Shown here piece by piece: positions 42,033-56,242 of a stretch of DNA of 64,000 nt (the first letter of the stretch is position 1; every line of letters starts with the position of its first letter). The translations under genes and the position numbers were made by a program. This stretch comes from Thiohalospira halophila DSM 15071. Lineage in GTDB: Bacteria > Pseudomonadota > Gammaproteobacteria > Thiohalospirales > Thiohalospiraceae. The stretch is taken from NCBI RefSeq assembly GCF_900112605.1, contig NZ_FOMJ01000001.1, positions 148,577-212,576 of the forward strand, written 5' to 3'. The notes beneath the pieces were generated by a model that worked only from the letters and a program-made list of their open reading frames with translations, was not told the DNA's origin and searched no databases.

Positions 42033-43973
42033 TTAGCCGGTGACGCGGTTGTTGATGAGCTCGTCCACCACGGCCGGGTCGGCGAGGGTGGAGGTGTCGC
42101 CCAGGCTGTCCAGCTCGTTGGCGGCGATCTTGCGCAGGATCCGGCGCATGATCTTGCCCGAGCGGGTCTTGGGCAGGCCCGGGGCCCACTGGATGGCATC
42201 CGGGCTGGCGATGGGGCCGATCTCCGAGCGGACCAGGTTCACCAGCTCCTTGCGCAGGGCGTCGGAGGGCTCGGCGTCCTTGACCAGGATGACGTAGGCG
42301 TAGATCCCCTGACCCTTCACGTCATGGGGATAGCCCACCACGGCGGCCTCGGCCACGGCGTCGTGGAGCACCAGCGCCGACTCGATCTCGGCGGTACCCA
42401 TGCGGTGGCCGGAGACGTTGAGGACGTCGTCCATGCGGCCGGTGATCCAGTAGTCCCCGTTGCCGTCCCGCCGGGCGCCGTCGCCGGAGAAGTAGCAGCC
42501 CTTGAAGGCGCTGAAGTAGGTCTCCACGAAGCGCTGGTGGTTGCCGTAGATGGTCCGCATCTGGCCGGGCCAGGGGCGGGTGATGACCAGCGCCCCTTCG
42601 CCCTCGCCCTCGACCACGTGGCCGTCGGTATCCATGAGCGCCGGCACGATGCCGAAGAAGGGGCGGGTGGCGGAGCCGGGCTTGAGCTCCGTGGCGCCCG
42701 GCAGCGGGGTGATCAGGTGACCACCGGTCTCGGTCTGCCACCAGGTGTCCACGATGGGGCACTGCTCCTTGCCCACCACGTGGTAGTACCACTCCCACGC
42801 CTCGGGATTGATGGGCTCGCCCACCGTGCCGAGGATGCGCAGGCTGGAGCGGTCGGTCTTCGTGACCGGCTCGTCGCCCTCGCGCATGAGGGCGCGGATG
42901 GCGGTGGGGGCGGTGTAGAAGACGCTGACCTGGTGCTTATCCACCACCTCCCAGAAGCGCGAGGCGTCGGGGTAGCTGGGAACGCCCTCGAAGACCACGC
43001 TGGTGGTGGCGTTGGCCAGCGGACCGTAGACCAGGTAGCTGTGGCCGGTGATCCAGCCGACGTCGGCGGTGCACCAGTAGACGTCGTCGGGCTGGAGGTC
43101 GAAGGTGTACCAGGTGGTGATGGCGGCGTAGAGGAGGTAGCCGCCGGTGGTATGGAGCACGCCCTTGGGCTTGCCGGTGGAGCCGGAGGTATAGAGGATG
43201 AACAGCGGGTCCTCGGCATCCATGGGCTCGGCGGGGCAGTCGGCGCTGGCCGCCTCCACCGCCTCGTGGTACCAGACGTCGCGGCTGTCGTTCCAGCCGA
43301 TGTCACCGCCGGTGCGCCGCACGGTGAGCACGGTGTGGACGGAGGGGCACTGGTCCACGGCCTTGTCGGTATTGGCCTTGAGGCCCACCTTGCGGCCGCC
43401 GCGCACGCCCTCGTCGGCGGTGATGACCACGCTGGCCTCGGCGTCCTGGATCCGGTCCTTGAGCGCCTCCGGGGAGAAGCCGCCGAAGACCACGGAGTGG
43501 ACGGCGCCGATCCGGGCGCAGGCGAGCATGGCGTAGACCGCCTCGGGGATCATGGGCATGTAGAGGCAGACCCGGTCCCCCTTGGAGACGCCGCGCTCCT
43601 TGAGGACGTTGCCCAGCCGACTCACCTGCTCGTGGAGTTCGCGGAAGGTGATGTGCTGGTCCTGGTCGGGCTCGTCGCCCTCCCAGATCAGGGCGGTCTT
43701 CTCGGCATGCTCGGCCAGGTGGCGGTCGATGCAGTTATGGGCGACATTGAGCTTGCCCCCCTTGAACCACTCCACGTGGACGTCGCCCTCGAAACTCCAG
43801 TCCAGGGTGGTATCCCACTTCTCGAACCAGTCCAGGAAGCGGTCGGCCTGCTCGGCCCAGAAGCCCTCGGGATCATCCACCGAGCGGCGGTACATCGCCT
43901 CGTACTCGGCCTGGGTGACGTGCGCCCGGGCGGCCACGGATTCCGGAACCGGATAGACCTTGTGCTCCGACAT
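42033..43973 (-). CDS. acs: Acetyl-CoA synthetase
   Basis: AMP-forming acetate:CoA ligase of 646 residues, the usual length. Motifs in order: [48 protein letters not shown] (P-loop), [35 protein letters not shown], and the C-terminal [15 protein letters not shown] with the lysine that is acetylated in homologues. It activates acetate taken up by the symporter encoded upstream. It is the last gene of the minus-strand acetate group; a hairpin lies in its 73-bp leader. Confidence 0.95.
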
Positions 43974-44046: not shown

Positions 44047-44745
44047 TCAGCGTCGGGCCGCTCGGGCGGGCGACAGGACCGCCTTCAGCGGCAGCCGGCC
44101 GCCACCGGCCCGGTCGGCCCACTGGGCCAGGAAGAGCTCGCCGGCGGCGACGGCGTCCGCCAGGGCGTCGTGGGCGCGATGGGGCGGGAGGCCCCAGGCC
44201 CCGCGCACCGCGTCCAGTCGCAGGTCGGCGGCGCGCACGGGCTGTCCCCGGCGCTGCCGGTGGCGGTGCTCCAGCCACTGGGTATCCACCACCGCCGCCG
44301 CAAAGCGGCCACCGTACACCGCCCGGCAGGCCCGATCCAGAAAGGCCAGCTCGAAGGGGGCGTAGTGGGCCAGCAGGACCCGACCGGCCAGCCGCTCCAG
44401 GAGCTCTCCCATCGCCGAGGCCAGGGATTCCCCCCCGGCCACGGCGGTGTCGGTGAGGCCGTGGATGGCGACGCTGTCCGCCCCCACGGCCCCTTCGGGC
44501 CGTACCGGCAGGCCGAGCCCCTGGCCCAGCTCCAGCCGTCCGCCCCGCAAGGGTACCAGCCCCATGCTGATGATCTCATCCCGGGCCGGATCGAGCCCGG
44601 TGGTCTCCAGATCCAGGGCCAGGAATTCCACCTCGCGGCAGTCGCTTCCCGGCGCCGGAAAGGGAATGGCCAGGTAGTCGGCCAGCGGCCCCGGCGGCGC
44701 CCGCCGGGCCAGCCAGCGCCGCCGCCACTGACCGCCGGCCATCAT
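44047..44745 (-). CDS. DnaQ-like 3'-5' exonuclease
   Basis: DEDDh exonuclease of 232 residues. Exo I is FLALDLETTGLDPARDEI, Exo II is LLAHYAPFELAFLDRA, and Exo III is RAHDALADAVAAG with His and Asp. It resembles DNA polymerase III epsilon-like proteins. It sits between a DUF294 protein and acs, overlapping the DUF294 gene by 4 bp (ATGA). A role in acetate metabolism is unknown; this linkage may reflect nucleotide or RNA turnover. Confidence 0.85.
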   Translation of the reverse strand: MMAGGQWRRRWLARRAPPGPLADYLAIPFPAPGSDCREVEFLALDLETTGLDPARDEIISMGLVPLRGGRLELGQGLGLPVRPEGAVGADSVAIHGLTDTAVAGGESLASAMGELLERLAGRVLLAHYAPFELAFLDRACRAVYGGRFAAAVVDTQWLEHRHRQRRGQPVRAADLRLDAVRGAWGLPPHRAHDALADAVAAGELFLAQWADRAGGGRLPLKAVLSPARAARR

Positions 44746-46607
44746 CCGAAGCGCCCCGCCTCGTAGCGCTGGGCCAGCGCGGATTGATGGGTCTGGATGA
44801 TCCGGAAGGCGTCCTTGAGGTGGTGGCGCTGCAGCCTTGAGAGGGAGGCCGGATCCAGGTGGTTGTCCGGGCGCTCGCCGGCGCGCAGCGCCTCGGTCTG
44901 GTGGCGGATGCGCAGGTCGCCGAGCAGGGCGAAGGCATCCGCGAGTTCGGCGGCATCCCCGGCGTTCATTGAGTCCGTGCCCAGGGCCCGAAGCCGGTCC
45001 AGCGTGGCATTCTCCCGGAGGCCCGCGCCCAGGGCGTGGATCCGGGCGAGATCCACGATGGGGATGAGGCCGTCGCGCTTCAGGTCCAGGGTATGGGCAT
45101 GGTCCCCGCTGCGGTCGACCACGAACTGGCGGAAGAAGCCCAGGGGCGGCCGGCGGCTGAGGGCATTGCCGGCCAGCGCCGCCCGGAAGGCGGAGTGGTC
45201 GGCGGTCCAGGCCAGGAACTCCGTGCGCAGTTCCTCCACCGCCTCCCGCGCGGCAGGGGTGCCGGCGGTGACCGAGAGGTCGAAGAAGATGCTGGCATGC
45301 ATCAGCGCCTGCGGCTCCGGCTCGTGGGTCCAGCGCCGGAAGTATTCCCGCCACGTGGCCAGCGGCTGGCACCAGTCCGGGTTGGTGGCCATGACGTTGC
45401 CGGGGCAGTAGGGGAAGCCGGCGGCATCCAGGCCGTCGGAGACCCGCCGGGCGAACTCGGCGAACCAATCCCACCCCTCGGCATCCGGCTCTTCCAGGAG
45501 GACCAGGCCGTTGTCCTGATCCGAACCCGCCGTGGCCTCCCCCCGGGCCACGGAGCCGCAGGTGATCCAGGCCCAGCCCACCGGGGGCGGGCCCCGCTCG
45601 GCGGTCAGCTCCGTCTCGGCCAGCTCGGTGAGCCGCCGGGTCACGGCCTCGGCCACGGCGGTCACCGCGCGGGTAACGTGGCTGGCATCGGCGCCGGCGG
45701 CGACCATCTGGGGCTGGAGTTCCCGCAGGCGCTCTCCCACGCCCGCCAGCGCGGTTCGATCTTCGGCGCGGCGGATGTCGCCCACCAGGTAGAGGGCATC
45801 CCCGGCGCGCAGGCGCAGCAGATCGCCGCTGGAGATGACCCCGGCCGGGTGCCGGTTACGGACCACCGGCAGGTGGTGGACACCCAGCCGGGTCATGGCC
45901 ATCAGCGCCTCCAGGGCGCTCTCCGTCGCCTCCACGGTGGCCGGCTCGGGGGTGGCGATGGTCCCCACCGGCTCACCCGGATCGCGGCCGGCTGCCAGGC
46001 AGCGGTTGCGCAGGTCGCGGTCGGTGACGATGCCGGTCAGGGCCCCGTCGGCGTCGGTAACTAGCAGGGAGGAGACGCCGGCGCGCGCCATGGCGGCGGC
46101 GGCCTCCCGGATGGGGGCGTCGGCGGCAATGGTCGCCGCCGGACGCTTGAGCAGATCCCCCACGGCCAGGCCGGCGAGGTCGCCGCCCGGGCCGGGGGTC
46201 TGGTGGGCCGCGCTCAGCGCGGCCCGGAGTCGATCACGCTCGCCGGCGGCCAGGGCGCCGGCGAGTTCGGTATGGTCCGTGGCGAGGTGTTGGACCTCCA
46301 CGCACGGCAGGCCGTAGATGAGGGCATCCTCGACCACGCGACCCTGGAGCGCGGCGCCGTCGCAGGCGCCGGCCAGGGCCCCCTCATCCAGGCGGTCGAG
46401 GAGGTGGCCGTGGTTGTCCGTGAGTTCCACCGCCCCGGTCCGGAGGAGGTAGAGCGTCTCCCCCTCCGGCTCGGCCGGCGGGAAGGCCGCCCCGGCCCGC
46501 AGGTAGCGGGCGTGGAGTCGGCCGGCCACCGCCGCCAGGGTCGCCTCGGGGAGGTCGGCCAGGGCGGGGATGGTGGCCAGGAAGGCACGGACGTCGGCCG
46601 GTTCCAT
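44742..46607 (-). CDS. CBS/DUF294 nucleotidyltransferase-like signalling protein (downstream copy)
   Basis: Protein of 621 residues. The domain order is a cyclic-nucleotide-binding-like N-terminus (1-140, TLYLLRTGAVELTD), two CBS repeats (about 150-270), a DUF294 GlnD-like nucleotidyltransferase with ITCGSVARGEATAGSDQDNG (GS-x10-DxD-like) and a C-terminal substrate-binding domain. Members are commonly linked to SSS symporters and acs. They may sense nucleotides and modify a partner. It is a diverged paralogue of the protein at 48801-50672. It follows the symporter by 20 bp. Confidence 0.85.
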   Translation of the reverse strand: MEPADVRAFLATIPALADLPEATLAAVAGRLHARYLRAGAAFPPAEPEGETLYLLRTGAVELTDNHGHLLDRLDEGALAGACDGAALQGRVVEDALIYGLPCVEVQHLATDHTELAGALAAGERDRLRAALSAAHQTPGPGGDLAGLAVGDLLKRPAATIAADAPIREAAAAMARAGVSSLLVTDADGALTGIVTDRDLRNRCLAAGRDPGEPVGTIATPEPATVEATESALEALMAMTRLGVHHLPVVRNRHPAGVISSGDLLRLRAGDALYLVGDIRRAEDRTALAGVGERLRELQPQMVAAGADASHVTRAVTAVAEAVTRRLTELAETELTAERGPPPVGWAWITCGSVARGEATAGSDQDNGLVLLEEPDAEGWDWFAEFARRVSDGLDAAGFPYCPGNVMATNPDWCQPLATWREYFRRWTHEPEPQALMHASIFFDLSVTAGTPAAREAVEELRTEFLAWTADHSAFRAALAGNALSRRPPLGFFRQFVVDRSGDHAHTLDLKRDGLIPIVDLARIHALGAGLRENATLDRLRALGTDSMNAGDAAELADAFALLGDLRIRHQTEALRAGERPDNHLDPASLSRLQRHHLKDAFRIIQTHQSALAQRYEAGRFG

Positions 46608-46626: not shown

Positions 46627-48441
46627 CTAGTGGCCGGTGGCCCCGCCGGCGCCGCGGGGCACCCGGATGCTGGCGACCAGCTCCTGGATGGACTGCGGCG
46701 GGGCGGCGGTCACCTTGGAGACGGTCCAGGCCACGGCGAAGTTCAGCAGCATGGCCAGGCCGCCGATCCCCTCGGGGGAGATCCCGAACAGCCAGTTCTC
46801 CGGCACGTCCGCGGCGAAGGGCTCCACGAAGACGCCCTTGAAGTAGATGATGTAGGCCAGCGTGAAGACCAGGCCCACCACCATGCCGGCGATGGCCCCC
46901 TCGCGGTTCATGCGCTTGTTGAAGATGCCCATGATGATCACCGGGAAGAGGCTGGCCGCCGCCAGGCCGAAGGCGAAGGCCACCACCTGGGCCACGAAGG
47001 CGGGTGGGTTGGCCCCCAGGTAACCGGCGATGAGGATGGCCGTGGCGGCTGCGATCCGGCCGGCGGCCAGCTCGCCCCGCTCGCTGATCTGCGGCCGGAA
47101 GGTCCGCTTGAGAAGGTCGTGGGAGATGGCCGAGGAGATCACCAGCAGCAGGCCGGCCGCGGTGGACAGCGCCGCGGCCACGCCGCCGGCGGCCACCAGG
47201 GCGATCACCCAGTTGGGCAGGTCGGCGATCTCGGGGTTGGCCAGGACCATGATGTCGCGGTCCACGTAGACCTCGTTGGCGAAGGGCGCCCCCTCCACCG
47301 GCTCGCCGTCGCCGGGGTTGGCGACCAGTCGCTGGCCGTGCTCGCCGGTCTGGTCGGTGAACTGCGGCTTGCCGTCCAGGGCGGAGCCGGCGGCGTACTG
47401 CAGCTTGCCGTCGCCGTTGTGGTCGTGCCAGGCGATGAGGCCGGAGTGCTCCCAGGTGGAGAACCACTCGGGCATGGCCTCGTACTCGGTGCCCTGCTCC
47501 TCGGGACCGTTCACGGTGTTGATGAAGTTCCAGTGGGAGAGGGCGCCCACCGCCGGGGCGGTGGTGTAGAGAAGGGCGATGAACAGCAGCGCCCAGCCGG
47601 CGGAGCGGCGGGCATCGCGGACCTTGGGCACGGTGAAGAAGCGCACGATGACGTGGGGCAGGCCGGCGGTGCCGACCATCAGCGCCAGGGTGATGAAGAA
47701 GACGTCCACCGTCGGCTTGCTGCCCTCGGTGTAGGGCCCGAAGCCCAGGTCCACCAGGGTCTGGTCCAGCTTGGCCAGCAGGTCGGTGCTGGTGCCGGCC
47801 AGGTCGGCGCCCAGGGCCACCTGCGGGATGGGGTTGCCGGTCACCTGCAGAGCGATGAAGACTGCCGGGACGGTGTAGGCGAAGATCATCACCACGTACT
47901 GGGCGACCTGGGTGTAGGTGATGCCCTTCATGCCGCCGAGGACGGCGTAGACGAAGACCACGCCCATGCCGATGATGAGGCCGGTGAGCAGCTCCACCTC
48001 CAGGAAGCGGGAGAAGACGATGCCGACACCGCGCATCTGCCCCGCCACGTAGGTGAAGGAGATGAAGATCAGGCAGATCACCGCCACCACGCGGGCGGTA
48101 TCGGAGTAGTACCGGTCGCCGATGAACTCCGGCACCGTGAACTTCCCGAACTTGCGCAGGTAGGGCGCCAGCAGCAGGGCGAGCAGCACGTAGCCGCCGG
48201 TCCAGCCCATGAGGTAGACCGAGCCGTCATACCCCAGGAAGGCGATGAGGCCGGCCATGGAGATGAAGGAGGCGGCGGACATCCAGTCGGCGGCGGTAGC
48301 GGCGCCGTTGGCCACCGGATGAACGCCCCCACCGGCGATATAGAATTCGCCGGTGCTGCCGGCCTTCGCCCAGAAGGCGATGCCGAGGTAGAGGGCGAAG
48401 GTCGCGCCCACCACCAGATAGATCAGTGTCTGCAGTTCCAT
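46627..48441 (-). CDS. SSS-family acetate/solute symporter (VC_2705 type)
   Basis: Sodium:solute symporter of 604 residues with about 13 helices. It opens LIYLVVGATFALYLGIAFWA and has ATAADWMSAASFISMAGLIAF, GQMRGVGIVFSRFLEV and VYAVLGGMKGITYTQVAQY, typical of the ActP/VC_2705 branch. An unusually long hydrophilic loop (about residues 325-400) contains a DHNGDGKLQY calcium-loop-like motif. It probably takes up acetate or a related carboxylate with Na+. It works with the DUF4212 small subunit encoded upstream and feeds Acs. Confidence 0.87.
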   Translation of the reverse strand: MELQTLIYLVVGATFALYLGIAFWAKAGSTGEFYIAGGGVHPVANGAATAADWMSAASFISMAGLIAFLGYDGSVYLMGWTGGYVLLALLLAPYLRKFGKFTVPEFIGDRYYSDTARVVAVICLIFISFTYVAGQMRGVGIVFSRFLEVELLTGLIIGMGVVFVYAVLGGMKGITYTQVAQYVVMIFAYTVPAVFIALQVTGNPIPQVALGADLAGTSTDLLAKLDQTLVDLGFGPYTEGSKPTVDVFFITLALMVGTAGLPHVIVRFFTVPKVRDARRSAGWALLFIALLYTTAPAVGALSHWNFINTVNGPEEQGTEYEAMPEWFSTWEHSGLIAWHDHNGDGKLQYAAGSALDGKPQFTDQTGEHGQRLVANPGDGEPVEGAPFANEVYVDRDIMVLANPEIADLPNWVIALVAAGGVAAALSTAAGLLLVISSAISHDLLKRTFRPQISERGELAAGRIAAATAILIAGYLGANPPAFVAQVVAFAFGLAAASLFPVIIMGIFNKRMNREGAIAGMVVGLVFTLAYIIYFKGVFVEPFAADVPENWLFGISPEGIGGLAMLLNFAVAWTVSKVTAAPPQSIQELVASIRVPRGAGGATGH

Positions 48442-48800: not shown

Positions 48801-50672
48801 TTACAGCTGATAGTCCAGCGCCAGGCGCGCCTGGAGCTTGCGGGCCTGGCGGAAGGCCTCCTTGAGGATCCGGCGGTGGAGCTCGTTGAGCCCGTCCGGA
48901 TCCACGCGGTTGTCCAGTGGCTCGCCGGCGGCCGCCTGCCGCCGGTGCTGCTCCATGCGCAGCCACTGGATGAATTCGTAGGCGTCGCGCCAGGCGGAGG
49001 CGTCGTCGGGATCCAGGCCGCCGGCGGTCACCACGGCTTCCAGCCGGTCCAGGGTGTGGGTGGCCGCCACGCCGTGGGCCAGGGCCAGCAGCCGGGCGGC
49101 ATCCACGAAGGGGGCGAGCCCCTGGACCTTGAGGTCGACGCCGGGGCGGCCGTCGTCGCCGGCGGAGCGCTTGATCTCGCCGAACAGCCCCAGGGGCGGA
49201 CGGTTGCGCAGGGCGTTCTCGGCCATCTGGCGGCGGAAGCGCGAATTGGCCGCCACCGCCTCGCCCAGCCAGCCGCGCAGGGCCGCCGCCGGCTCCGGAT
49301 CCCCCCAGAGGGGACGGAAGTCGAAGAAGACGGTGGCGTTCAGCAGGTGCTGGGGCGTGCCCTGGTCGATCCAGCGGGCGAAGCGCTCGCGCCACTCTCC
49401 GGCGGTGAGGCAGCAGTCGGGGTTGCTGGCCATGATGTTGCCGGGGCACAGCGGGAATCCCACCCGGGCCAGCCCGTCGTTGATGGTCCCGGCCAGGGAG
49501 AGCAGTTCGGCGCGGGCGGCCTCCACATCGCCGTCGGCCGGCTCGAAGAGGATGCCGTTGTCCTGGTCGGTCTTGAGGGTCTGCTCCCCGCGGCCCTCGC
49601 TGCCGAAGGCGAGCCAGGTGAAGGCGGTCCGCGGCCGGCCGTGCTCGGCGAGGATGTGATGGATCACGGCCCGGGTCAGGCGGTCGTTGAGGGTCGCCAC
49701 CACGCGGGTGATGGCGTCGGCCCCGGCCCCCTGGGCCAGGAGGCGACCGATAAAGGCGTGGACGTCGGCCTGCAGGGCGGCCAGGGCGGCGATATCCGGC
49801 GCGTCGGCGATGGCGCGGGCCAGGGCGACCAGGCCGGCGTCGCCACCCACCACGGCGGCCTCGCTTACTACCCCGGCCACCGCCCCGTCGCGGGTAAGGA
49901 GAAGATGGCGGCGGCCGGACTCGGCCAGGGCGCGGGCCGCCGCCCAGGCGGGGGCGGTGATGTCCAGGGCGGGGGCTTCGGCGTCGGCCAGCTCGCCCAC
50001 GGGGGTGGCCAGGTCCCGGCCGGCGAGGGTGACCCGGGTGGCGATGTCCCGCAGGGTGATGATCCCTGCCGGGTGACCGGCGGCGTCGGTGACCGCGATG
50101 GCCTCGCCCTCGTCGCGCTCCAGCTCGGTGAGGGCATCGCGCAGCGCCGTACTGGCCGGGGCGATGACGGCCGGGGTCGGGGTCAGCTCGCCCAGGGGGG
50201 TGCCCAGGGGCGAGGAGGCCGGGGTCCCGGAGGCGGGGGCGCCGCGGCGCAGGGCCTGATCCAGCAGGCTGGCCAGGCGGCGGGCGCAGAAGTCGCCGAA
50301 GACCGGGCTCGCCTCGCGCAGTCGGTCGAACTCCGAGCGCGGCAGCTCGAAGCAGAAGGTGTCCTCCACCGCCCGGTGGCGGGTGCGTACCGGCCGGTGG
50401 CCCAGCAGGGCGCCGATGGGGAAGCTCTCGCCGGTGACCAGCTCCCACGCCTCGCCGTCACCGCCGGTCTCCCCGCGTACCCGGCCCTGTTTGATGATGT
50501 AGAAGTACTCCGCTGGTCCCTGCTCCGGGGCGGTGATCACCTCGCCCCGGGCGAAGAAGGCCAGCTTGGCCCGCGCCGCCAGGCTCTGCAGCTCCGCCGT
50601 CCCCATCTGGGCAAAGGGGGCGTGGCGGCGCAGGAAGTCGACGGTGGGCTGGAGGGCGTCGGTGTCACTCAT
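48801..50672 (-). CDS. CBS/DUF294 nucleotidyltransferase-like signalling protein (upstream copy)
   Basis: Protein of 623 residues with the same domain plan as 44742-46607. A cyclic-nucleotide-binding-like domain (about 20-120, YFYIKQGRVRGETG, RTRHRAVEDTFCFELPRSEF) is followed by two CBS repeats, DUF294 with LAFGSEGRGEQTLKTDQDNG and a C-terminal DUF294_C region. The N-terminus is closer to a true effector-binding fold than in the paralogue. It is the first gene of the acetate operon and lies directly downstream of the sigma-54 promoter; start codon 62 bp from the -12 element. Confidence 0.85.
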   Translation of the reverse strand: MSDTDALQPTVDFLRRHAPFAQMGTAELQSLAARAKLAFFARGEVITAPEQGPAEYFYIIKQGRVRGETGGDGEAWELVTGESFPIGALLGHRPVRTRHRAVEDTFCFELPRSEFDRLREASPVFGDFCARRLASLLDQALRRGAPASGTPASSPLGTPLGELTPTPAVIAPASTALRDALTELERDEGEAIAVTDAAGHPAGIITLRDIATRVTLAGRDLATPVGELADAEAPALDITAPAWAAARALAESGRRHLLLTRDGAVAGVVSEAAVVGGDAGLVALARAIADAPDIAALAALQADVHAFIGRLLAQGAGADAITRVVATLNDRLTRAVIHHILAEHGRPRTAFTWLAFGSEGRGEQTLKTDQDNGILFEPADGDVEAARAELLSLAGTINDGLARVGFPLCPGNIMASNPDCCLTAGEWRERFARWIDQGTPQHLLNATVFFDFRPLWGDPEPAAALRGWLGEAVAANSRFRRQMAENALRNRPPLGLFGEIKRSAGDDGRPGVDLKVQGLAPFVDAARLLALAHGVAATHTLDRLEAVVTAGGLDPDDASAWRDAYEFIQWLRMEQHRRQAAAGEPLDNRVDPDGLNELHRRILKEAFRQARKLQARLALDYQL

Positions 50673-50733
50673 GGGGGTCCGGTCGGCATTGCCCGTGGGA
50701 CGGCCTGCGGCCGCTGTATTCCCTGGAGGGAAA

Positions 50734-50748
50734 GCAGATGTCGTGCCA
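50734..50748 (-). promoter_or_regulatory. Sigma-54 promoter of the acetate operon
   Basis: On the minus strand the bases read TGGCACG-ACAT-CTGC, which matches the -24/-12 consensus TGGCACG-N4-TTGC except one base, with GG and GC 10 bp apart. It faces the DUF294-DUF4212-symporter genes. The expected start is near 50722, giving a leader of about 50 nt. Confidence 0.8.
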
Positions 50749-50795
50749 GCGCCGGGAGGGCGCCATGGCGGGGAGAGGAGGGAGGTTGGTCGTGG

Positions 50796-50818
50796 GCCCG
50801 TTACCGGCCGTAACGGGC
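50796..50818. promoter_or_regulatory. Activator dyad 1, GTTAC-N5-GTAAC
   Basis: GCCC-GTTAC-CGGCC-GTAAC-GGGC has 9-bp perfect arms; the core is 50800-50814. Its centre is about 85 bp upstream of the expected sigma-54 start. It shares its core with the sites at 50822 and 56228 and is a likely CbrB binding site. Confidence 0.7.
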
Positions 50819-50821
50819 AGT

Positions 50822-50836
50822 GTTACGCAAGGTAAC
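50822..50836. promoter_or_regulatory. Activator dyad 2, GTTAC-N5-GTAAC
   Basis: GTTAC-GCAAG-GTAAC starts 22 bp after the first core, two helical turns away, centred about 107 bp upstream of the expected start. The same-face pairing is typical of NtrC-family enhancer sites. Confidence 0.7.
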
Positions 50837-50853
50837 GTCGAGGCGGGGCGGTC

Positions 50854-51639
50854 TCAGGAGCGGGCCTCGGTCTCCAGCCGATGGATGAAGCGCTGGAGGG
50901 TGGCCTCGGTGGCGTTATTGAGCCGGGTAAAGCGGCAGCCGATGCGACGGACCTCGCGTCCGTTCATCAGGGTGGTGTCGAAGGAGTTTCGCACCTCCAG
51001 CTCCAGGGTCACCTCGCCCATTTCCTGGAGGTGCAGGGTGGCCTCCGGGATGGTGGTATGAGGCTCCACCTCGATCTCGCACTGATCATCCAGCATGCCC
51101 AGGCCGCCGATGGAGATGTCCTGGACCGGCAGGGTCTGGATGTCCCCGTGGCGGTCGGTGAAGGAGCAGGTGACCGGGTCTTCCGAGGCGCGCGGGACCG
51201 GGGCGCGGAAGGCCTGGCGTCGCTGCAGTCGCAACAGCTCCCTGGGCATGGGGATGAGAAAGACCGGCTCCCCCTGCATCCGGGCCGGCTGGATGGAATC
51301 GGCGGTGAACTGGAGGGTGACGTTGTTGTGCTTGGTATCGAACAGGACCTCCGAGGCGTCGAGCATGCGGTCATCGGCGGATCCGTTCTCGCGGCGCTCC
51401 AGGAGCACCATGTTCTTCTTGGGGTCGACGTGGACGATGGTGGTGGCCAGGAAGCCGCTGGGGGAGTCGTCGAAATAAGCGCTGATCTGCCGCGCGCCCT
51501 TCTGCAGGCTGCGCAGGACCGAGGTGATCTCCACCGGCGATTTCACCAGGTAGTCGGCGTAGGCGTTGAGGCCGATGAGACGGACGGCCTGACGCCCCAT
51601 GGCTTTCTCCTGCGCGGATTCGGACGAGGAATCGGTCAT
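50854..51639 (-). CDS. ycgR: YcgR-family PilZ protein
   Basis: Protein of 261 residues with an N-terminal YcgR domain (about 30-135) and a C-terminal PilZ domain. The c-di-GMP-binding motif RRQAFRAPVP supplies the RxxxR arginines and DISIGGLG the D/N-x-S-x-x-G motif. YcgR brakes flagellar motility when it binds c-di-GMP; no flagellar gene is in this window, and PilZ proteins can also act on pili or secretion. It lies 75 bp after cbrB with its own dyad upstream. Confidence 0.88.
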   Translation of the reverse strand: MTDSSSESAQEKAMGRQAVRLIGLNAYADYLVKSPVEITSVLRSLQKGARQISAYFDDSPSGFLATTIVHVDPKKNMVLLERRENGSADDRMLDASEVLFDTKHNNVTLQFTADSIQPARMQGEPVFLIPMPRELLRLQRRQAFRAPVPRASEDPVTCSFTDRHGDIQTLPVQDISIGGLGMLDDQCEIEVEPHTTIPEATLHLQEMGEVTLELEVRNSFDTTLMNGREVRRIGCRFTRLNNATEATLQRFIHRLETEARS

Positions 51640-51714: not shown

Positions 51715-53036
<1,322 letters not shown>

Positions 53037-53040
<4 letters not shown>

Positions 53041-55988
53041 ATCGGTTCCTCGTGACGGGTTTCGGGGGCCGGCGCGGCGGGCAGGCGCAGGTTGACCCGG
53101 GTGCCTTCCCCGGCGCGGCTCTCGATATCGATGCGGCCGTAGTGGGCCTGGACGATGTGGTAGACCACGGCGAGCCCCAGGCCGGTCCCCTCACCGGGGG
53201 CCTTGGTGGTGAAGAAGGGCTCGAAGAGCCGCTCCAGGTGATCGGGTTCGATCCCGCCCCCCTCGTCGATGAGGTCGAGGACGATGGCATCCCCCTCGGC
53301 CTCGGCGGAGATCTCCACCGTCCCCCCGGCGGGGGAGGCATCGGCGGCATTGCCCAGCAGGTTGACCAGGACCTGGAGCAGGCGCGGCTCGTCACCGAGG
53401 ACGGCGAGGTCCGTGGCGATGTGGCGCTCGAAGGCGGCTCGTTTGCCGCTGCCGGAGACGGCCACCAGGCGGATGGCCTCCTCCACCAGCGGCGCCACCG
53501 CCACCGGCTCGCTGGCGCGGGTATCGGCATCCCCGCCGTGGCTGAAGCGCATGAGCGCCTGGAGGATGTCGCTGATCCGCCGGGTCTGGGTGCGGATCTG
53601 GCCCAGGCCGGTGGTCACCGCCTGCGGGTCGGCCGGGTCCAGGGCCTGGGCCAGGCCGTCGATGTTGGTGACCGGGTTGCCGATCTCGTGGGCGACGCCG
53701 GCGGCCAGCCGGCCCACCGAGGCGAGCCGCTCGCTGTGGGCCAGCTCGGCCTCCAGCCGCTGGAGGTCGGTGAGGTCCTCCACCAGGACGACGGTGCCGG
53801 CGGCGTCGCGATCCGCCTCGATGGCGGCCTTGTGGAGGTTGAGCCAGCGGGTGGCTTCGCCCTGGCCCACCTGGACCTTGCGCAGCCGGCGGTCGTCGGT
53901 GCGCAGGAAGCCGGCCAGCAGCCCACCCCACGGGGCCGGCAGCTCGGCCACCGGTCGCCCGGTGGCCGCCTCCTCGTCGATCCCGGTGAGGGTGACCAGG
54001 GACTGGTTCCAGTGGATGACCTCGCCGTCCAGCGCCACCGTGGCCGCCCCCAGCGGGAGGTCGTGGAGGACCTGGCGGTGATAGCGGCGCAGGGAGTCGA
54101 GCTCCCGGGAGAGGCCGTGGAGCTCGATGGTGGAATCGGCCAGGCGTGCCTCCACGTGGCGGACCGTGTCGGCCAGCGCCTGGCGGGTGTGAGGCTCCAG
54201 CCGCAGTCGCTCGTCCACGATCATCCGGGCCAGCAGGGGGCCCATGAGACCGGAGAGATTGCGCTCGATCTGCTCCCGCAGCCGGGTGAGCTCGCCGGGG
54301 CGGTCCTCGTCCGGGGCCAGGTCCAGGTCCTTGAGGGCGCGGCGGACCTCCCGCCGGGCCACCTCCGGCCCCACGGCCTCGGCCAGCCGCTCGCTGAACT
54401 GTTCCGCCGAGCCGGCCGCCACCACCCCGGTGGCCGGCGGGGTCGCCTGCACGCAGGCCCGGGCCGCCCGGGCCTCCGCCTCGGTGGGGCGGGTGGCCAG
54501 GCTGACGGCCAGGAAGAGCGCCCCGTTCACCGCCAGGGAGGCGGTGGTGGCGGTGAACCAGGGGGACTCCGTGGCCACCGTGCCGAGGAGGGCCGCGGGA
54601 TCGAGGCCGAACGCCAGGAAGCCGGCGCGCTCCAGCAGGGGAAGCAGCAGCAGTCCGGCCCAGACGGTGCCGCCGCCCAGCAGGCCGGCGACGAAGCCCT
54701 GGCGGGTGGCCCGCGGCCAGAGGAGCAGCCCCACGATCCCGGGCAGAAACTGGGCCACGGCGACGAAGGAGATGAGCCCCATCTCCACCAGCCCGGCGCG
54801 CTGCTGAAGGAGCAGGTGGAAGGCATAGCCGGCGAGGATGATGAGCGCCACCAGCCCCCGCCGGCTCCACAGCAGCCAGCGATAGAGGTTGCCACCCTCC
54901 GGCGGGCGTCGGGTGAGGCTCGCCGGTAGCAGCAGGTGGTTCATGGCCATGGCGGCCAGGGCCAGGGTGGTGACGATGACCATGGCGCTGGCGGCGGAGA
55001 CGCCCCCCAGGAAGGCGGCGATGGTCAGCAGGGCGTTCCCCTCTGCCTGGGGCAGGGCGAGGACGAAGTAGTCCGGCGCCCCGGCCAGCCCGCGCTCCTG
55101 GCCGGCCCAGAGGATGGGCGGGATGGCCAGGTTGAGCAGCAGCAGGAAGAGGGGGAAGCCCCAGGCGGCGATCCGTAGCCCCCGCGCATCCGTGGCCTCG
55201 GTAAAGGCCATGTGGAACTGCCGCGGCAGCAGGAAGGCGGCGGCGAAGGCGAGCAGCAGCAGGGTCGTCCAGGAGCCGGAGTGGACCGGCTCGTACATCC
55301 GCTCCAGGGCCGCCGGGTTCGCGGCCAGCCACTCGTTCAATCCGCCCGGCCCGCCGAAGACGCCGAACAGGGCCAGGGCGCCCACGGCCAGCAGGGCGGC
55401 GAGCTTCACCAGGGACTCGAACGCCACCGCCGCCACCAGCCCCTCGTGGCGCTCCCCCGGGGCGGCGTGGCGGGCGCCGAAGAGGGTGGCGAAGAGGATG
55501 AGCAGGGCGCAGAAGGCCAGGGCCAGCAGGTGGGGCGGCGTCTGGCGGGTGAGGACCTGGGCCGATTCGGTCACCGCCCGGATCTGGAGGGCGATGTAGG
55601 GGAGGCTGCCCACCAGCATGAAGAGCGTCACCGCCACCCCCGCCGCCTGGCTGCGGTAGCGGAAGGTGAACAGGTCCGCCAGGGAGGTGAGCTGGTGCTC
55701 CCGCGCCAGGCGCAGGATGGGGGCGAGCAGCACCGGCGCCAGGAGGAAGGCCAGGGTCGGCCCCAGGTAGATGGTCAGGAACTGGTAGCCATCGCTGGCG
55801 GCGAAGCCGACGCTGCCGTAGAAGCTCCAGGAGGTGGCAAAGACCCCCAGGGAGAGGACGTAGACCGCCGGGTGGCGCAGGAGCCGGTCGGGTAGCCAGC
55901 CGCGCTCCGCCGCCAGGGCGATGAGGAAGAGCAGGGAGAGGTAGCCCGTGGCCGCTGCCAGGAGCCAGCCGGCCTCAAGCGTCATCAT
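53037..55988 (-). CDS. cbrA: SSS transporter-like sensor histidine kinase CbrA
   Basis: Sensor of 983 residues. The N-terminal 500 residues form a sodium:solute symporter-like domain with about 13 helices (AVYVLSLGVFATSWSFYGSVG, RQFHMAFTEATD). A STAC/linker region with a conserved acidic stretch follows, then PAS (about 640-740), and the histidine kinase with ASVGRLAAGVAHEIGNPVTN, His near 767. The ATPase has NLLGNAADASPAGG, DEGGGI and TGLGLAVVYHIV. CbrA signals carbon availability to CbrB. The transporter domain may bind or move a substrate (histidine in Pseudomonas). It overlaps cbrX by 14 bp. Confidence 0.88.
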
Positions 55989-56193
55989 CCCCCCCGGCGC
56001 GATCCCCCAGGTGGAGGAGGGCGGCGGCGATGGCCAGGACCGCCGCCCAGACGGCGTAAGGGGCCAGCCAGCCCCAGGCCGGTCGCGCCCAGACGGCCAG
56101 CAGCGGCGAGGCCAGGAGGGCGACGGCGATGACGGCGGCGATGATGGGTCGATCTCCCCCGCTACCCCGCTCGCTGCTAGTGCCGTTGGCCAT
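55975..56193 (-). CDS. cbrX: CbrX-like small membrane protein
   Basis: Protein of 72 residues with two predicted helices (PIIAAVIAVALLASPLLAVWA and PYAVWAAVLAIAAALLHLG). It is positioned between gluQ and cbrA, like the small cbrX gene of Pseudomonas, and overlaps the cbrA start by 14 bp. Sequence similarity to CbrX cannot be judged by eye; the name rests on position, size and hydrophobicity. It may aid translation or function of CbrA. Confidence 0.6.
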   Translation of the reverse strand: MANGTSSERGSGGDRPIIAAVIAVALLASPLLAVWARPAWGWLAPYAVWAAVLAIAAALLHLGDRAGGDDDA

Positions 56194-56227: not shown

Positions 56228-56242
56228 GTTACGTAGCGTAAC
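56228..56242. promoter_or_regulatory. Activator-type dyad 3, GTTAC-N5-GTAAC upstream of cbrX
   Basis: GTTAC-GTAGC-GTAAC has the same core as the two dyads at the acetate promoter. It overlaps the end of gluQ, 35 bp before the cbrX start. No sigma-54 promoter was found between it and cbrX, so it would suit autoregulation, perhaps repression. Confidence 0.6.

Follow-up and report, generated by a model that had tools for sequence, protein, structure and literature searches.

Sequence comparison makes it very probable that, in Thiohalospira halophila DSM 15071, the sigma-54 activator CbrB directly activates the genes for acetate uptake and activation by way of two tandem dyads upstream of a -24/-12 promoter. 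In the window (the whole 64,000-nt stretch of contig NZ_FOMJ01000001.1 that was analysed), the enhancer, the promoter and the predicted target genes are arranged as follows.

50822..50836, no strand: distal enhancer dyad GTTACGCAAGGTAAC, centre at -107; the pair is kept upstream of orthologous operons
50800..50814, no strand: proximal enhancer dyad GTTACCGGCCGTAAC, centre at -85
50733..50748, minus strand: predicted sigma-54 -24/-12 promoter TGGCACGACATCTGCT, GG-N10-GC spacing, predicted +1 at 50722
48801..50672, minus strand: DUFa, a cNMP-binding, CBS, DUF294 nucleotidyltransferase protein, first gene of the predicted operon
46627..48441, minus strand: VC_2705-family sodium/solute symporter (SSF; TIGR03648, 861 bits, cut-off 321)
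44742..46607, minus strand: DUFb, a second CBS-DUF294 protein
44047..44745 (start approximate), minus strand: DnaQ-like 3'-5' exonuclease ORF between DUFb and acs, FLALDLETTGLDP motif in its translation
42033..43973, minus strand: acs, acetate--CoA ligase (TIGR02188, 1027 bits, cut-off 725)

The promoter reads TGGCACG-ACAT-CTGCT from 50748 to 50733 on the minus strand and faces the DUF294-symporter-DUF294-exonuclease-acs genes. A TGGCACG-N4-CTGC element in this orientation had been proposed in the first-pass annotation and was confirmed; none of 500 shuffles of the intervening DNA reached its score. The C of the -12 element is at 50734, which places the predicted +1 50 nt ahead of the first DUF294 ATG (50672). 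RpoN is encoded in the genome. The two GTTAC-N5-GTAAC dyads are spaced 22 bp centre to centre, their centres lie 85 and 107 bp upstream of the expected start exactly as first annotated, and the proximal dyad is 51 bp from the -24/-12 element. NtrC enhancers consist of palindromes in tandem, placed on one helix face some 100 bp ahead of a -24/-12 promoter. The enhancer described here resembles them in having tandem palindromes upstream of a -24/-12 element and differs in half-site sequence and in signal. IHF-assisted looping of the P. putida kind was considered and rejected, as no IHF-like site was found in the DNA between enhancer and promoter, whereas the P. putida CbrB promoters studied require IHF.

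The unit had been described as DUF294-symporter-acs. Those genes are present, but a second DUF294 gene and the exonuclease ORF, the latter named from its translation, precede acs. The symporter matches the VC_2705 family and not the ActP equivalog, and its probable role is uptake of acetate or another monocarboxylate. Because the unit is interrupted between DUFa and the symporter gene (about 360 bp) and between the exonuclease ORF and acs (about 70 bp), a single transcript extending to acs is a prediction. The symporter gene is flanked on both sides by genes for DUF294 nucleotidyltransferase-type proteins.

Exact dyads were rare. The window contains three, and none occurred in 100 dinucleotide shuffles. 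A pattern search of the 2.69-Mb genome (23 contigs) returned four exact GTTAC-N5-GTAAC sites, against about 0.05 expected by chance under a first-order model of the window and none for a reversed control pattern, so the motif does not occur at random genome-wide; random occurrence would have counted against the original proposal. Two of the four sites are at the acetate promoter, one is before cbrX-cbrA, and one is before a porin gene. One-mismatch dyads were at background genome-wide (15 vs 21 for the reversed control) and are uninformative alone; the claims made here are therefore based on exact sites, pairing, and context. With its flanks, the operator motif across genomes is YGTTAC-N5-GTAACR.

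The porin site is an exact dyad at C1:286242 that has a one-mismatch partner at a distance of 22 bp, and the Porin_O_P promoter carries its own TGGCACG -24 element.

L005:10221-10257 (C1:286220-286256): second paired-dyad/sigma-54 module, upstream of the Porin_O_P gene

This second copy of the module would drive expression of an outer-membrane porin. A further element common to the acetate and porin promoters (CCGCCAYGGC...GCCCTCCC) was considered and discarded as not significant (p 0.06).

The predicted activator and its kinase are encoded next to the acetate genes, in the following locus.

50854..51639, minus strand: PilZ/YcgR-like gene between cbrB and the enhancer
51715..53040, minus strand: CbrB, a REC-AAA+-HTH sigma-54 activator with a short linker (14 aa in the alignment stretch) and recognition helix SRKTLWERRQRLGIPR
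53037..55988, minus strand: CbrA, a transporter-like sensor histidine kinase whose PAS and HK domains were assigned by Pfam
55979..56193, minus strand: small hydrophobic ORF that overlaps the start of cbrA and is placed like cbrX in Pseudomonas
56228..56242, no strand: single dyad GTTACGTAGCGTAAC before cbrX-cbrA, 35 bp ahead of the small ORF

The earlier statement that a CbrB-type activator is encoded next door holds: cbrB lies about 0.9 kb upstream of the acetate promoter and adjoins cbrA, and its product has the receiver Asp at 51, the GESGTGKE and GGTLFLDE sequences, and a recognition helix that differs from that of Pseudomonas CbrB at 1 of 16 residues. CbrA is 48% identical to Pseudomonas CbrA over residues 2-970, and its SLC5 part gave no match to the Pfam SSF model. 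The gene order gluQ-small ORF-cbrA-cbrB is that of Pseudomonas, in which cbrX has been described (PMC8871633), and in both cases a CbrB-dependent unit (predicted here) lies downstream of cbrB. The PilZ/YcgR-like gene is probably a bystander. A YcgR-like PilZ gene is also found between cbrB and the enhancer in G009-G011 and G135 (L119-L121, L084).

The half-sites agree with those of the characterised regulator. In P. putida, the CbrB subsites TGTTAC and GTAACA were defined by mutagenesis and EMSA (PMC6296734), and the Pseudomonas site has been given as TGTTAC-N12-14-GTAACA-N15-19-GTAACA (PMC8871633). The GTTAC/GTAAC half-sites, as given for Pseudomonas CbrB in the first-pass annotation, were thus correct, and the outer T and A of the Pseudomonas half-sites are reproduced by YGTTAC...GTAACR. 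The control of crcZ/crcY by CbrAB in Pseudomonas is likewise exerted by a REC-AAA+-HTH activator with a near-identical recognition helix at a sigma-54 promoter (PMC6296734, PMC8871633). The operators differ in geometry: those described here are tandem true palindromes with 10 bp between half-sites, whereas the Pseudomonas half-sites are non-palindromic and about 20 bp apart, and the sites in the window do not follow the Pseudomonas geometry. The linker before the DNA-binding domain of CbrB is shorter than in Pseudomonas. Downstream of cbrB lies the acetate operon, whereas in Pseudomonas the sRNA gene crcZ does; CrcZ was rejected as the product of this position, since no match to it was found in the genome with strict filters.

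The distribution of the dyads was compared with that of cbrB in a class sample of 369 gammaproteobacterial genomes, with CbrB orthologs called at E <= 1e-125. An ortholog was found in 36 of the 369. The tandem pair of exact dyads occurred in six genomes, all of them among those 36 (hypergeometric p ~6e-7, kinship ignored). Dyads were present at the DUF294 promoters of 10 of 13 cbrB-positive genomes vs 0 of 12 such promoters in cbrB-negative genomes (p ~9e-5, kinship ignored). Three cbrB-positive genomes thus have no dyads before DUF294; in one (G212), pairs precede acs and the symporter instead, and another (G172) was represented by only 180 bp of upstream DNA. The pair is present although cbrB is distant in G045 (~27 kb), G232 (~58 kb), and G090 (on another contig), so mere neighbourhood does not explain the association. 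In 39 fetched loci, dyads or pairs were often ahead of DUF294-symporter-acs or straight after cbrB.

The distance to the promoter was also kept. A set of 20 promoters was selected for having dyads, and 260 bp of each was scored for the best sigma-54 match. In every one of the 20, this match lay at 50-76 bp from the proximal dyad, against 2.2 expected. The dyads of L110 and L085, outside this set, had no sigma-54 element in that range; with them the count is 20 of 22. Distances from the proximal dyad to the -24 element group near 51, 63, and 75 bp, in steps of 12 rather than 10.5.

When 398 genomes from across the phylum were scanned, a single additional tandem pair turned up, in G377, which belongs to another class.

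L242 1501-1538; L251 9517-9554: tandem dyads before the acetate cluster of G377

This pair fronts a porin gene, followed by genes for a symporter, a DUF294 protein, and acs, and a TGGCACAGCTCTTGAA element lies 54 bp away. The porin, encoded by the first gene of the cluster, is homologous to the Thiohalospira porin predicted as the second target (29%, E 3e-42). No close CbrB was found among the matches in G377, and the best match has a different HTH. The arrangement supports the link between enhancer and target, and the lack of a recognisable close cbrB means that another regulator may use the operator there.

The same genome, with the same enhancer and no recognisable CbrB, lends some weight to the explanation that the dyads in Thiohalospira serve another of its dozen or so sigma-54 activators (12 strong activator domains were found in the genome) and that CbrB is only a neighbour. 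This is unlikely, as cbrB is present in all genomes of the class sample that have a tandem pair, dyads also occur at cbrA promoters, and both the half-sites and the recognition helix match those of the experimentally characterised Pseudomonas CbrB. Chance, or a structural role such as a terminator stem, would account for each palindrome being a perfect inverted repeat in intergenic DNA. Such an origin is the least probable of the explanations considered, since conservation between genomes is confined to the half-sites and the five bases at the centre vary, the spacing and the distance to -24 are constrained, and the palindromes are missing before DUF294 in cbrB-negative genomes.

Control of the acetate genes by CrbS/CrbR (MxtR/ErdR) was also weighed, as in that system too a transporter-like sensor kinase acts over acs, a symporter, and a DUF294-type protein (PMC5715377, PMC5436829). 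In P. fluorescens, acs, actP, and the DUF294-type gene PFLU5625, whose product has the same domains as DUFa, are CrbR targets (PMC5715377). CrbR is a LuxR-type regulator acting at an ACTU motif next to a sigma-70 promoter, whereas the regulator predicted here is NtrC-like and the acetate promoter has a -24/-12 element with conserved phased enhancers. No ACTU-like TA..AC.....GTC was found in 50661-50860 with this simple pattern, and a search of the genome with the transporter part of CbrA gave no second protein. Control by CrbR is therefore disfavoured and considered very unlikely.

Direct activation by CbrB remains the preferred reading, and the following mechanism is proposed for it. Under the presumed inducing condition, CbrB would be phosphorylated, the kinase CbrA being encoded alongside, and CbrB dimers would bind the two tandem palindromes. 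The bound protein would oligomerise and reach sigma-54 RNA polymerase at 50748-50733 by DNA looping, and the promoter would open for the DUF294-symporter-DUF294-exonuclease-acs genes. Sensing of the carbon state would in this way be wired straight to acetate uptake and activation.

The dyad at 56228-56242 is a probable autoregulatory site. Of the 30 short-linker loci in which the region ahead of cbrA was available, 23 have a single dyad there. No phased sigma-54 element was seen at the cbrX-cbrA dyad, and an extended -10-like TGnTA lies 3-7 bp past the dyad in 11 of 25 loci (null 3%). Together, these observations suggest that CbrB represses its own sigma-70 promoter there.

A link between CbrAB and acetate is already known physiologically. 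Both growth on acetate and expression of acsA depend on CbrB in P. aeruginosa, where it acts by way of CrcZ and Crc (PMC3480352), and the fitness of Azotobacter mutants in cbrA and cbrB suffers most on acetate (PMC12811062). The control of acsA in P. aeruginosa is post-transcriptional, via CrcZ/Crc, whereas direct transcriptional control is predicted here. Direct sigma-54 control of acetate genes and a palindromic CbrB operator were not found in the literature searched. CbrAB was called unique to Pseudomonadaceae in a 2022 review (PMC8871633), which is contradicted by its presence in this host and in other genomes outside that family. The new elements are the palindromic operator geometry and the distribution of CbrAB beyond Pseudomonadaceae. 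In reviews, CbrAB is pictured as confined to Pseudomonadaceae, with unusual monomeric binding to non-palindromic sites and with control of acetate through an sRNA; here about 10% of the gammaproteobacterial species sampled carry CbrAB, and the enhancers are palindromic and NtrC-like, with predicted direct acetate targets. This provides a predicted regulon and an operator that can be searched for, together with a hypothesis tying a protein linker to operator spacing.

For that hypothesis, the linker before the DNA-binding domain of CbrB was compared with the spacing of the half-sites. The linker has 31-43 residues in Pseudomonadaceae, Cellvibrionaceae, and Halomonadaceae vs 12-25 residues elsewhere. 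In the long-linker loci, inverted half-sites 19-21 bp apart were found downstream of cbrB in 6 of 9, and no dyads upstream of cbrA; in the short-linker loci, the half-sites are 10 bp apart. In the tree, the long-linker proteins come out as a single group (99/95), so the correlation of linker and geometry represents a single evolutionary change, and the dependence of operator spacing on linker length is offered as a hypothesis. The Pseudomonas geometry is a mark of the Pseudomonas branch and not of the regulator family.

A broader scenario is put forward tentatively, at somewhat less than even likelihood. CbrAB would be widespread in gammaproteobacteria, with direct sigma-54 activation of acetate genes from tandem palindromes as its conserved, possibly ancestral job. 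In the Pseudomonas/Cellvibrio/Halomonas branch, the linker would have lengthened and the operator would have changed to non-palindromic half-sites through a shift of about one helical turn; in Pseudomonas, crcZ would have taken the slot downstream of cbrB, and the acetate genes would have passed to CrbR and Crc. The comparison suggests that CrbR and CbrB exchanged one acetate gene set in evolution. In G072, a second CbrA-like match (transporter plus kinase) lies past acs, near cbrAB (L091:4550-7168).
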